Notes under the pieces: model-generated | Database searches by the model: none | The model's input: the letters and a program-made list of their open reading frames with translations, nothing else | Told to the model about the DNA's origin: nothing | Made by a program: the position numbers and the translations under genes | Part shown: positions 4,137 through 11,125 of the stretch, in pieces | Layout of the letters: the number at the start of each line of letters is the position of its first letter | How positions within the stretch are numbered: the stretch's first letter is position 1 | Virus record (IMG/VR): IMGVR_UViG_3300021075_000019 | Span: 1-21,976 of that record | From: a virus | Direction: 5' to 3' (one strand) | DNA: 21,976 bases

Positions 4137-4631
4137 TTATGGTATTAGTTTGAATTGGATTACATGAGGTTCGCATATTGATAAGCCAATTGACGTGCAA
4201 AATTTAATCAGGCGTTGATCGTAGGTGTTGACTTCCGTGATAGGAAAGATAGTAAAGTCGTTTACCCACTGGGCAGTTGCCAGGTGAATAGCATCTTTTG
4301 ATTTTAATCTCCATCCATTAGAGATAGCGTTTCTGATCAGGTATGCAGCATTCTGTGCAATAACTTGATTGAATTCTATAAGGATAATATCGGTATTTAG
4401 CCAGATGCTATTTAATTTTTCTTCTATGTCGGGATCGAGAAAGTTATTTTCTCTTTCATGGCTGGCATGGGTAACTTCAACAATTGAGACAATTGAGGTA
4501 ATAATTTTCCCTTTTTTGGATACAGTTTCTTCCAAGACCTGTTCGATTATGGAGGATCTGTTCTCTTCATCGTTGATATATGAGAGAAATATACAACTAT
4601 CCCAGTATAGTGAAGGAGTGTCATTCTTCAT
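4137..4631 (-). CDS. PIN-domain protein (VapC-like ribonuclease)
   Basis: A 164-aa PIN-domain protein. The four acidic PIN residues are visible (numbered from the GTG one codon upstream): D12 in LYWDSCIFL, E53 in SIVEVTHA, D114 in LKSKDAIHLATA and D139 in NTYDQRL. Most such proteins are Mg2+-dependent RNases acting as toxins of toxin-antitoxin pairs or as RNA-processing enzymes. The ATG at 4631 lies within the last codons of the 253-aa gene upstream, so the two are translationally coupled; a GTG one codon upstream (4634) is an alternative start. The AT-rich composition matches the rest of the 3220-5400 island. The partner is much larger than a typical VapB antitoxin, so a classic VapBC assignment is not supported. 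Function as a phage-carried defence or maintenance gene is inference. Confidence 0.85.
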   Translation of the reverse strand: MKNDTPSLYWDSCIFLSYINDEENRSSIIEQVLEETVSKKGKIITSIVSIVEVTHASHERENNFLDPDIEEKLNSIWLNTDIILIEFNQVIAQNAAYLIRNAISNGWRLKSKDAIHLATAQWVNDFTIFPITEVNTYDQRLIKFCTSIGLSICEPHVIQFKLIP

Positions 4632-5382
4632 CACGTAGGCGCCTTATTGTTTGATCGGAAAGTTCGTCACCTGGTTTCCATGGAAGTAATCCTCTAACGG
4701 ATTTGAAGCTACCATGCACAGGATCGGGGAGTTTTATTATTTCTTTGATGTTGTGAATTTCAAGAGGACGTGCGGTTTTTATATCACGCATGATCATCCC
4801 AGTGACTCTGACATATTTTCCCCATATATCGCGTACGATATTGGATAGTTCTTCGTCAAAGAAGCAAGTGACTGCGCGATCGAATAAGGCATCGTAGAGG
4901 ATAAATCTCAGATTTTTGCGGCTGGAAAGGGTCTCAACATGACCATTGATAGCGCCAGCCGTGAAAACTTTCGTTTCATCGATTGCTTTTTCGCTGGAGG
5001 AAGTGATGTGGAATGTGTCTTTATCTGTAATAAATTCGATAGAACTTATTTTACCATTGAGGATATTGGTGATTGCTTTGGCTTTTTTTACTATTTTATT
5101 TGGGTAAGGGATGGGGCGATTGTTTTGTAGAGCGGCACCGATTGCAGCGTAGGCAGCGATTATTTTTTCAACCGTTTCTATATCTGTAGATTTTCCTTCG
5201 ATGACGGTAGTTGCACTGCCACTTTCAAGTTCAATAATTTCCCATTCAATATCGGCTTTGCTGTCAATTTCATTAGATAAGGCTTTTATGAGTATGTTAA
5301 GATTATTTATCGCCTGAGAAAATAATTCCAGCGGTATTTCACCATTCAGCCTGAGGGTTAATTTATCAGAGGTCATATCCAT
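4621..5382 (-). CDS. Unknown 253-aa protein paired with PIN nuclease (antitoxin-like position)
   Basis: I do not recognise a named domain. The sequence shows an N-terminal alpha/beta region with LTLRLNGEIPLELFSQAINNLNILIKAL, an Ala-rich helix with IIAAYAAIGAALQNN near residue 78, a middle beta-rich part, and a conserved-looking C-terminus with RGLLPWKPGDELSD..IRRLRDEE. I recall proteins ending in this WKPGD...RDEE pattern just upstream of PIN genes, so it may be the PIN partner. It has no Cys, signal peptide or clear membrane span. Its 3' end overlaps the PIN gene, and the two form an operon. Start choice is ambiguous: ATG at 5382 is only 3 nt from a TATAAT box, whereas a second ATG at 5376 is 9 nt from it and fits a leaderless message better. 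Confidence 0.78.
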   Translation of the reverse strand: MDMTSDKLTLRLNGEIPLELFSQAINNLNILIKALSNEIDSKADIEWEIIELESGSATTVIEGKSTDIETVEKIIAAYAAIGAALQNNRPIPYPNKIVKKAKAITNILNGKISSIEFITDKDTFHITSSSEKAIDETKVFTAGAINGHVETLSSRKNLRFILYDALFDRAVTCFFDEELSNIVRDIWGKYVRVTGMIMRDIKTARPLEIHNIKEIIKLPDPVHGSFKSVRGLLPWKPGDELSDQTIRRLRDEE

Positions 5383-5472: not shown

Positions 5473-5480
5473 AGGGATAC

Positions 5481-5660
5481 GAGTCAGCAAACCTCTACAA
5501 CCTCACGGGGCTTTTTTGTTTTCTGTGAGACTATTTATTTATATCTATTTCGGTTGCGGATATGAACCCGCTCAGGTGTAAAAGCCCTGCTAGAGTTTGC
5601 TGACTCCCAGGAAACTTGCCTGGGCGGGTTTGTGTTTTAGCACTGGAAGGAGTCAGCAAA
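5481..5660 (+). ncRNA. Structured 5' leader with competing pairings around the ribosome binding site
   Basis: The transcript from the 5443 promoter begins with GAGTCAGCAAAC (5481-5492) plus TCT (5494-5496), which pairs with AGAGTTTGCTGACTC (5592-5606): 15 bp with one bulged C. Inside, 5506-5515 pairs with 5580-5589 (10 bp, one G.U) and GCGG/CCGC forms a small hairpin (5556-5571). A further hairpin CCCAGG/CCTGGG lies at 5606-5624, followed by a T-rich stretch. The same GAGTCAGCAAA recurs at 5650-5660, just before the ATG and including the GGAG Shine-Dalgarno, and is complementary over 12 nt to 5596-5607. The leader can therefore either close on itself, leaving the ribosome site free, or hide it. 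No known riboswitch class was recognised. Confidence 0.7.
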
Positions 5661-6092
5661 ATGGAACAGAATGGTAATGTGGTAGCAAGTGGACAGTCAG
5701 GAAGTACCCTCACCCCAGGAACCTACTCCCCAACCCTCTCCCTGAAGGGAGAGGGAGTAAGACGGATGGAGACGATGGTGGTGGAGCGTGCGGTTTTGGA
5801 GGGGTTGGTGGAGGAGGGGGTTGATTCTCTGTTGGAGTGGTTGAAGAGGAAGGGGGCGCCGGAGATGGTGGTGAAGTATTTTGATAGTTTGTTTGCGATG
5901 AATGGTTTGTTGAACAGGTATACGGGGGATGAGTTGCCTGCGATGTTTAATGAGGAGATTTTGCGGAAGGTGGATAGTTTGAAGTGGGGGATTATGTTGT
6001 TTGAGGGGGAATGGGATAAGTATGCGGGGAGGGAAATTACGAGTGAGGAATTACGAATTGCGAAGAAGGAGCTGGTTTTTTTTGAATGTTGA
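5661..6092 (+). CDS. Unknown small acidic protein behind a regulatory leader
   Basis: A 143-aa protein of unknown role. The ATG at 5661 follows AAGGAG, which is part of the leader's competing repeat, and is preferred for that reason; an in-frame upstream start at 5616 would cut into the leader hairpins. Residues about 19-36 (with LSLKGEG) are encoded by a copy of the dispersed palindrome, read in the same phase as the portal copy. An alternative start at 5766, just after that repeat, would use its GGGAG as ribosome site and give a 108-aa protein. The body is helical and acidic: a VERAVLEGLVEEGVDSLLEWLKRKG segment, then ITSEELRIAKKEL near the end. It lies between the cargo island and scaffold gene, with promoters on both sides. 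It might be a head accessory protein or a lysogen-expressed gene; the sequence does not decide. Confidence 0.65.
   Translation: MEQNGNVVASGQSGSTLTPGTYSPTLSLKGEGVRRMETMVVERAVLEGLVEEGVDSLLEWLKRKGAPEMVVKYFDSLFAMNGLLNRYTGDELPAMFNEEILRKVDSLKWGIMLFEGEWDKYAGREITSEELRIAKKELVFFEC
5721..5762 (+). repeat. Dispersed palindromic repeat, copy 3 (inside the 5661 CDS)
   Basis: Perfect 9-bp stem CCCTCTCCC (5734-5742) and GGGAGAGGG (5747-5755) with loop TGAA and the usual ACCTACTCCC and AGTAAGA flanks. It is in frame within the small gene. Like copy 1, also in a gene, it has a TGAA loop, whereas all seven intergenic copies have TAAA. Confidence 0.9.
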
Positions 6093-6117
6093 TTTTTAGA
6101 ACATAATGTTGTAAAAT
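6089..6117 (+). promoter_or_regulatory. Promoter overlapping the 5661 gene's stop codon
   Basis: TTGATT at 6089-6094 and TAAAAT at 6112-6117, spaced 17 nt. The -35 covers the stop codon of the previous gene. Expected start near 6124, at the beginning of a second structured leader before the scaffold and capsid genes. Each hexamer differs from consensus (two mismatches in the -35, one in the -10). Confidence 0.6.
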
Positions 6118-6123
6118 AGATAT

Positions 6124-6204
6124 GTGAGGGATAAGAATCCCTTTAGTCCTAGAGAAGCGAAAGCCGGGACAGTGCATGTGAGTGCATTGTTGCGGCTTTT
6201 TTGA
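6124..6204 (+). ncRNA. Second structured leader / attenuator-like element upstream of scaffold
   Basis: Seen helices: GGGAT/ATCCC (6128-6132 with 6137-6141), a helix GTCC/GGAC (6146-6149 with 6167-6170) topped by GC-GAAA-GC (6157-6164, a GNRA tetraloop), and AGTGCA/TGCATT (6171-6176 with 6183-6188). AAAGCCG (6160-6166) can alternatively pair with CGGCTTT (6193-6199), which is followed by three further T, giving a terminator-like stem that destroys the GNRA helix. This antiterminator versus terminator layout is typical of attenuators and riboswitches, but no known class is recognised. It may also simply be the terminator of the 5661 transcript. Confidence 0.5.
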
Positions 6205-6209
6205 TTCTG

Positions 6210-6248
6210 ACCTACTCCCAACCTCTCCCTAAAGGGAGAGGAGAAAGA
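6210..6248 (+). repeat. Dispersed palindromic repeat, copy 4 (upstream of scaffold)
   Basis: Stem CCTCTCCC (6222-6229), loop TAAA, GGGAGAGG (6234-6241), flanked by ACCTACTCCC. It follows the attenuator-like leader directly and precedes a purine-rich stretch leading to the scaffold ribosome site. Confidence 0.88.
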
Positions 6249-6309
6249 GAAGAGGGAGAAGAGAAGAGTAACCATGATTGGAAGATTAGCATGATAAGAA
6301 GGAGACGAG

Positions 6310-6852
6310 ATGTCTGATACAGTTAGCGCACAAGGTGCGGGTAAGGAAGGCGGGATGCCTACGAATGACAAGGGGAATAGTGTTGAACCCCAAAGTTTTG
6401 AGAGCTGGCTGGGAAGCCAGGGCGAGGATGTGCGCAGGTTGTATGATGAGCACACGTCCGGGTTGAAGAGTGCTTTGCAGAGTGAACGGTTGCAGCGGGG
6501 CGATTTGGCGAAGCAGTTGCGGGATGCGACGGCGAAGCTGGAGAATGGCTCTTTGGTGCGGTCGGAGTTGGAGCAGACGGTGGCTAAGCTGGATTTGCTG
6601 GAGAGACGGGCTTCGTTTTATGAGGAGGCGTTGAGCCAGGGAGTGGCTAATGCTCGGTTGGCATTTTTGGCGGCGCAGGAGAGTGACTCGTTCGAGAAGG
6701 GCGGGAAGGTGCGCTGGGATAAGTTGAAGGCGGAGTATCCGGAGTTGTTTGCGAGCGGGAAGCCTGCGGCAACGAATGCGGGTGCGGGTGCGGGAAGCCA
6801 GCCTGGGAAGGTGGATATGAATGCGATGATTAGGAGAAGGGCTGGAAGATAA
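6310..6852 (+). CDS. Capsid scaffolding protein (GP20-like minor structural protein)
   Basis: A 180-aa protein with a disordered, Gly/Ser/Pro-rich N-terminus (1-35), a long charged coiled-coil centre (about 40-120, with repeated Leu/Glu/Lys/Arg), a short RWDKLKAEYPELF helix and a Gly/Ala linker ending in a basic tail with MIRRRAGR. This layout and the place directly before the capsid gene are typical of scaffolds that guide procapsid assembly and bind the capsid protein through a basic C-terminus. GGAG at 6300-6303 precedes the ATG at 6310. Primary-sequence families of scaffolds are poorly conserved, so the call rests on architecture plus synteny. Confidence 0.85.
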   Translation: MSDTVSAQGAGKEGGMPTNDKGNSVEPQSFESWLGSQGEDVRRLYDEHTSGLKSALQSERLQRGDLAKQLRDATAKLENGSLVRSELEQTVAKLDLLERRASFYEEALSQGVANARLAFLAAQESDSFEKGGKVRWDKLKAEYPELFASGKPAATNAGAGAGSQPGKVDMNAMIRRRAGR

Positions 6853-10895: not shown

Positions 10896-11125
10896 TGCGA
10901 GAGGTGTACGCCAGCTTGTATACGGGCGATACACCTCCAGCCATTATCACGGATTTTATTTTATGCAGTGAGATATACCACTGTACGCCAAAAGAGCTTG
11001 ATGAGCAGGATGCAGAGCGGATCCTTGACCATATTATGGTGCATATTGCGAGGGAAGAGGTGCGTAAAATGGACATAGAGGGAAGCCAGAATGATCGATC
11101 TAGAACAGTTCCGAATACTTATTAG
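10895..11125 (+). CDS. Tail assembly chaperone, downstream frame (gpT-like), probably made as -1 frameshift fusion
   Basis: A 76-aa frame with EIYHCTPKELDEQDAERILDHIMVHI, which resembles the T-part of tail chaperones. The ATG overlaps the stop of the upstream frame (TGATG), but reading after a -1 slip on A AAA AAC continues directly as CTG ATG CGA... in this frame, giving a fusion of about 186 residues. By analogy to lambda gpG/gpGT the fusion would bind the tape measure, whose gene starts within its last 35 nt. Whether it is translated alone, as a fusion, or both cannot be seen. Confidence 0.75.
   Translation: MREVYASLYTGDTPPAIITDFILCSEIYHCTPKELDEQDAERILDHIMVHIAREEVRKMDIEGSQNDRSRTVPNTY

Follow-up and report, generated by a model that had tools for sequence, protein, structure and literature searches.

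The leader RNA of a small phage gene appears to belong to an uncatalogued family of cis-acting leader RNAs that follow a sigma-70 promoter, precede small accessory genes in phage structural regions and act as a folding-order switch; we put the probability of this reading at roughly 0.6. The leader spans positions 5481-5660 of a 21,976-nucleotide virus sequence (positions 1 to 21,976 of IMG/VR record IMGVR_UViG_3300021075_000019; the window hereafter means this whole stretch), and its features lie on the plus strand. It contains arm a at its 5' end, the complementary arm a', and a second sense arm, a2, that includes the Shine-Dalgarno sequence (SD). The design recurs in two other phages with different, still-pairing sequences and so has the look of a genuine RNA control element that had not been catalogued before.

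Arms and helices of the window leader

The leader had been described as lying behind a perfect sigma-70 promoter, and indeed TTGACA-18-TATAAT at 5443-5472 matches the consensus at 12 of 12 positions and is the top of 20 promoter-like sites in the 10 kb scanned. From its position, transcription is predicted to start at 5479-5481, and the 5'-terminal arm of the transcript is arm a (GAGTCAGCAAAC-C-TCTA, 5481-5497). The 11-mer GAGTCAGCAAA occurs at 5481-5491 and 5650-5660 on the plus strand and at 5596-5606 on the minus strand, with no other exact copy in the window. The anti-SD arm a' (TAGAGTTTGCTGACTCC, 5591-5607) pairs with arm a through 5481-5492 x 5595-5606 (12 bp) and, past the bulged C5493, through 5494-5497 x 5591-5594 (4 bp), with a duplex energy of -24.7 kcal/mol. 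The 15 bp plus bulge originally proposed for 5481-5496 x 5592-5606 is therefore right, with one further pair possible (5497 x 5591). The other partner of a' is a2 (GGAGTCAGCAAA, 5649-5660), which ends at the ATG at 5661; its pairing with 5596-5607, claimed to be perfect and to hide GGAG right up to the start codon, is confirmed as 12 unbroken base pairs with GGAG inside (-21.5 kcal/mol).

Several elements had been overlooked in the original prediction. Arms b (ATATGAACCCGCTCAGGT, 5560-5577) and b' (GCCTGGGCGGGTTTGTGT, 5618-5635) form an 18-bp helix that is the strongest of the window leader (-29.7 kcal/mol) and is equalled by none of 2000 shuffles. Overlapping the end of b' is a U-rich tract (TTTGTGTTTT, 5629-5638), interrupted by two G, and together they look like an intrinsic terminator with a large structured loop. 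Arms c (CGGGGCTTTT, 5506-5515) and c' (AAAAGCCCTG, 5580-5589) pair over 10 bp. Folding prediction offers an alternative to c/c' in the form of a local hairpin with a U-rich loop at 5502-5529, also predicted at the equivalent place in the other three members of the family. Because the arms are arranged in the order a - c - b - c' - a' - b' - a2, b/b' crosses both a/a' and a'/a2.

The top duplex between the a-a' segment and the a'-a2 segment of the window beats 2000 of 2000 shuffles. Of 200 dinucleotide shuffles, 199 fold less well than the whole leader (z -3.4), whose minimum-energy fold contains b/b' and not the arms first described. Across the window and 160 related loci, 1.57 Mb in total, only the window site has two direct copies and one inverted copy of at least 10 bases ending at an SD and start codon.

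Members in other phages and coupled arm changes

Three more members were found, two of them paralogous copies in the IMG/VR phage contig L166 and one in L211/L214, giving a family of four. L166 was the only contig returned by an IMG/VR scan for TTTGCTGACTC N25-55 GAGTCAGCAAA. Its copy 1 (about 2129-2294) follows the same plan (promoter, a, c, b, c', a', b', SD arm, ATG), with arms nearly identical to those of the window, a different 20-bp b/b' helix and a leader fold z of -5.4. Copy 2 (about 10936-11100), detected by an architecture scan of the collected loci, has the arms GAGTCAGGAAAC / GTTTCCTGACTCC / GGAGTCAGGAAA. The L166 copies have the promoter TTGACA-17-TAAAAT, with 6 nt from the -10 box to arm a, which places the arm near the expected start. 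At arm position 8, compared with copy 1 and the window, copy 2 has C changed to G in a, G to C in a' and C to G in a2, a triple change that preserves both a/a' and a'/a2. L166 carries two diverged promoter and leader copies before different small ORFs, both against structural genes.

L211 came from a search of 396 genomes, all from the class that contains Ornatilinea apprima (Anaerolineae), with a covariance model (R1) built from the window and the two L166 copies. Its arms a (GAGCTGCGAACTCAG), a' (CTGAGTTCGCAGCTCC) and a2 (GGAGCTGCGA), in shortened form GAGCTGCGA.. / ..TCGCAGCTCC / GGAGCTGCGA, are complementary three ways; the alignment of L211 was fitted to the model structure, and its pairings were checked directly as well. 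Helix b/b', prolonged by a stretch of G and C, is here CAAAACCCTGTG / CACAGGGTTTTG, c/c' is GCAGGCGT / ACGTCTGC, and the promoter is TTGACA-17-TACACT, 11 nt from arm a. The leader lies on the opposite strand among phage head genes (L214), flanked by a gp6-like connector on one side and a head completion gene on the other, and is followed by a 66-aa ORF and then a 119-aa ORF; upstream of it are genes that, from their sequence, we take to be HicA/HicB-like. L211/L214 is a prophage-like head-gene region in a genome of the sampled class, probably Anaerolineae, and what we say of the host comes from this one region, in a genome of the class of Ornatilinea.

The original prediction had named covariation of the arms in homologous leaders as its own test, which the members found here pass. 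Both pairings are kept by coupled changes in three arms, with a and a' covarying in L166 copy 2 and L211 and a2 covarying with a'. In the four-member alignment, both partners have changed in 4 pairs of a/a' and 98% of its cells are paired, and a'/a2 is perfect at 12, 12, 12 and 10 bp despite sequence change. On four of five measures, between 1 and 8 of 500 shuffles match the nested structure; none of the slid versions of the alignment does so, and these are at most 46% paired over the whole structure. Helix b/b' has no sequence similarity between phages yet is paired at the same place, and in L166 copy 1 and L211, as in the window, it beats 2000 shuffles, indicating that it was rebuilt. Helix c/c' beats shuffles in all four members (p = 0.009, 0.007, 0.032, 0.001), each of which also has a U-rich tract after b' and arm a at or near the expected transcription start.

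Wider searches left the family at this size. Pattern scans of IMG/VR gave no member beyond L166, patterns demanding exact arms yielding only L166 or chance matches, and the other genomes of the Chloroflexota sample contained none. An improved model (R2), applied to about 1.8 Mb of collected loci and to genomes of the phylum (390) and of the class (376), added no convincing member; these genome searches are not independent, because the sampled sets overlap. Comparing the leaders with phages and plasmids by blastn turned up no convincing match, and one of 37 nt to Escherichia phages was set aside as chance. Covariance-model matches were rejected in L053/L055 (L053, inspected, looks like coding sequence), in L213, where the arms fail to pair, and in L212, which has a hairpin and a U-run but no SD arm or b/b'. 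At 1501-1630 of L212, a leader before an ABC-transporter-like gene combines a 5' arm GCGTCTGAAAA with a downstream complement of that arm and a U7 run, and is possibly a distant cousin or chance.

Folding order and competing explanations

When the transcript is cut just after a', the predicted fold has a/a' in all four members and c/c' in three. For the window transcript, combining a/a' with the local hairpin gains 1.9 kcal/mol over combining it with c/c'. Once b' is added, b/b' is the better fold in three of the four members, by 0.6 to 10 kcal/mol, whereas L211 keeps a/a'. The predicted minimum of three members is helix b/b', in whose apical part a' is trapped. The full-length ensemble of L166 copy 2 is divided among a/a' (0.08), a'/a2 (0.40) and b/b' (0.48), and that of L211 has a/a' at 0.96 and, with arm a removed, b/b' at 0.92. 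The balance between folds is not uniform, since L211 prefers a/a' and the others b/b'. Of the two duplexes a/a' and a'/a2, the first is the stronger in all three members for which both were calculated. From the folds of cut transcripts, the ensembles and the duplex strengths, we therefore propose a folding-order switch in which arm a is made first.

Folding with and without the first arm, which the original prediction had suggested as a check, does not bear out its picture of the window. Because b/b' traps a' and is the predicted minimum, the window SD is not hidden by a' at equilibrium in secondary-structure models either way. Hardly any a'/a2 pairing is predicted by these models in the window, L166 copy 1 or L211, nor do they show the SD clearly hidden once arm a is removed. 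They are nested only, pseudoknots of b/b' with a/a' or with a'/a2 lying outside their scoring, and a real OFF state through a'/a2 would probably need a pseudoknot. The observation behind the original prediction is thus confirmed, and its interpretation as an anti-anti-SD / anti-SD / SD design is partly supported: the three-arm competition around the SD holds, but a' is not shared by a and a2 only, as b/b' also traps it.

In the mechanism that we infer, including its assignment of ON and OFF states, termination at b/b' and any trigger, arm a would pair with a' as the polymerase leaves the promoter, with c pairing with c' or sitting in the local hairpin, so that a 5' domain is formed. As b' emerges it could pair with b, giving a hairpin that with its immediate U-rich tract would be terminator-like and would trap a' apically. 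If the polymerase continues, a2 would emerge and could pair with a', hiding the SD, unless a' were already taken by a or buried in b/b'. An intact, available 5' arm would favour expression, leaving the SD free and disfavouring b/b'; a 5' arm that is lost, captured or slow to fold would favour b/b' and/or a'/a2, the OFF state, with b/b' and the U-tract lowering expression by termination and a'/a2 by SD hiding. The presence of c/c' and the U-rich tract in all members suggests that transcription may be attenuated besides translation. A wider proposal, which we hold only tentatively, is a portable class of phage riboregulators: a promoter and leader cassette placed before unrelated cargo, whose 5' arm would sense its own integrity, its timing or a trans-acting RNA or factor, and in which termination at b/b' and SD hiding by a'/a2 would turn expression off together.

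The leader could instead be an attenuator foremost, with b/b' and the U-tract as intrinsic terminator, a/a' and c/c' as antiterminator, and the complementarity of a2 to a' minor or serving only to block translation of decay products. We consider this unlikely, although every one of the four members keeps a U-rich tract directly after b' despite the rebuilding of b/b', b/b' with the U-tract is exclusive with a/a' plus c/c' in nested folds, and removal of arm a in L211 flips the predicted fold from a/a' to b/b'. The apical loop of b/b', at about 40 nt, is unusually large for a terminator, a terminator scan does not call b/b', and an a'/a2 pairing that stays perfect through change, including the coupled change of L166 copy 2, would need a reason.

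The folding-order reading was also set against known RNA systems. Rfam 15, riboswitches included, has no window match at gathering and only spurious matches far below it at E up to 10, consistent with the earlier statement that no riboswitch class was recognised; L211 is equally negative at E up to 1, and a literature search found no paper on this leader motif. The logic of the leader is nearest to that of the timP mRNA, the metastable anti-SD structures of aapA3 and hok, and terminator/antiterminator leaders. Classical attenuators and riboswitch platforms have the same anti-anti-SD / anti-SD / SD logic with a terminator-like alternative. The leader family differs from riboswitch platforms in lacking a known aptamer from Rfam and in having variable arms with no evident conserved binding pocket; and its 5' arm sits at the transcription start, which leaves no aptamer domain ahead of it. 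In the leader of the MS2 maturation gene, a transient structure gives a time window for translation (PMC6733600); the leader family would share with it a transient structure in a phage RNA that times translation, but MS2 is an RNA phage and its leader a cloverleaf, with no three-arm exchange.

These likenesses bear on a second alternative, a type I toxin-antitoxin-like mRNA of the hok or timP style, in which successive structures delay translation and an antisense RNA or end processing is the real switch; we regard it as improbable. The 5' end of hok mRNA is laid out as a 5' arm, its complement and an SD arm, and the same order of 5' activating arm, complementary arm and SD-side arm (tac/ucb/dcb) is found in the leader family, as is, in the proposed mechanism, a folding pathway set by transcription order. 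The metastable 5' hairpin of hok (hok/Sok, plasmid R1) is discussed in PMC6733600, as are the successive anti-SD structures that form during transcription of aapA3 mRNA in Helicobacter pylori; there, several anti-SD segments act on one SD, whereas in the leader family one anti-SD arm is common to two identical sense arms. The timP mRNA (TimPR type I toxin-antitoxin, enterobacteria) has its SD shut in a hairpin, and its translation depends on a pseudoknot formed upstream (PMC11228461). Like timP, the leader has exclusive conformations, some of which would shut in the SD, a distant, helix-crossing upstream pairing that would decide translation, and a structure that outlasts sequence change, but the timP pairing joins two stem-loops over 7 bp and involves the sRNA TimR (PMC11228461). 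The leader family has three linear arms of 10-16 bp with the 5' arm at or near the first transcribed base, non-homologous downstream genes and no Rfam relation.

Of the components that such an mRNA would bring, neither a Sok-like antisense promoter nor a hok 3' arm (fbi) was found. None of the four leaders has a reverse-strand sigma-70 site of at least 9 of 12. A complement of arm a with at most 2 mismatches is absent downstream of the window gene; in the pairing comparison, the window match is G-rich coding sequence, and in L166 the best such pairing is no better than shuffles. The downstream ORFs of 143, 94, 48 and 66 aa, inspected for a small toxic membrane protein, have no domain; the two L166 products (48 and 94 aa) look small and partly hydrophobic, but the 143-aa and 66-aa products lack a membrane-toxin look, and the family has no evident hok-like toxin and no conserved coupled upstream reading frame. 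Leader-peptide attenuation was rejected, as upstream ORFs vary in frame, length and product even between the L166 copies and almost none has an SD.

That the three GAGTCAGCAAA copies are regulator operators or mobile-element ends at the DNA level, not RNA arms, is very improbable: identical 11-mers near a promoter, with centre spacings of 115 and 54 bp that are close to whole helical turns, would suit such an element, but it leaves unexplained the extension of a/a' past the repeat across the bulge, the rebuilding of b/b' and c/c' in different sequences, the fold z-scores, and arms that differ between phages yet stay mutually complementary. Chance or neutral inverted duplication has nothing in its favour except how often inverted repeats occur in phage DNA generally and is hardly credible, given an arrangement unique in 1.57 Mb that recurs in other phages with coupled changes.

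Accessory cassettes and the scaffold operon

The gene under control is a 143-aa ORF (5661-6092, plus strand) with no detectable relative or domain: it has no match in Pfam, PHROGs, NCBIfam, PADLOC, phage records, or viral or genome contigs, and no significant PDB match, and a single-sequence structure prediction is uninformative (pLDDT 45). A terminator-like hairpin followed by T6 at about 6161-6202 (plus strand; inner stem 6168-6191 by scan) closes a transcription unit of promoter, leader, ORF and hairpin, which sits with minus-strand accessory genes in the interval from a MuF-like gene to the scaffold and capsid genes. The original description of a gene of unknown function in a head operon therefore holds for the lack of relatives but not for an ordinary head-operon gene, as this is a one-gene cassette with its own promoter and terminator-like hairpin; the 143-aa gene is an accessory 'moron' cassette gene, not a true head gene. 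The habit extends to the family: each member stands after a sigma-70-like promoter and before a different small gene (94 aa, with one hydrophobic stretch, for L166 copy 1; 48 aa for copy 2), and there is no convincing protein similarity between the window and L166. Since the downstream genes differ, the conserved unit is promoter plus leader, with the cargo not conserved, as in morons.

Just upstream of the window unit, on the other strand (4137-5382), a PIN-domain gene (Pfam PF01850) overlaps an upstream 253-aa gene of no known family, whose product has no relatives in viral contigs; the layout resembles a toxin-antitoxin pair within the head gene region. REP-like palindromes (CCTCTCCCTgAAGGGAGAGG) are present at 5730-5754 and 6217-6241, in and between phage genes, one of them inside the start of the 143-aa ORF, and similar stretches seem present in other window ORFs.

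The neighbouring scaffold gene has features of its own. At its start codon or just before it lies a tiny covarying hairpin, NNNC-GNGAN-GNNN, the AUG being partly in the loop and partly in the stem. The hairpin occurs in the window at 6303-6315 and 6348-6360, and also at 2228-2240, and in the relatives L002-L091, often in several copies; examples are GGC GAGAU GCC, GAAC GAGAU GUUC, GAUC GAGAU GAUC and ACC GAGAU GGU. Such hairpins number 119 in 54 relatives, where shuffled sequences would give 13.7; the AUG is present in 39 of the 54, and there are 22 distinct 13-mers, in which the second stem pair is GC, AT, CG or TA. Judged by these sequence patterns, the hairpin seems to be a so far undescribed operator for translation of the scaffold-capsid operon. 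Many relatives also have, directly before the scaffold gene, a strong sigma-70-like promoter, a short non-coding leader (often with an AACYRAATA start) and a terminator-like hairpin (L003, L029, L042, L056, L058, L059, L066, L070, L071; window 6089-6202), as if late capsid expression passed an attenuator. A recurring small ORF with a motif like LRRALLxVxxAIE lies just before this promoter-terminator leader, in the MuF-scaffold gap (L003, L037, L056, L058, L059, L066).

Structured control leaders before phage accessory (moron) genes have been little described, and none like this one is in Rfam. Here one design precedes unrelated small genes in three phages, and the triple compensatory change is strong sequence evidence for a three-arm RNA switch. 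Its promoter, arm a at the start, b/b', U-tract and a2 at the SD provide a search handle for such cassettes and their small genes, and the leader offers a compact natural system for control by order of folding.
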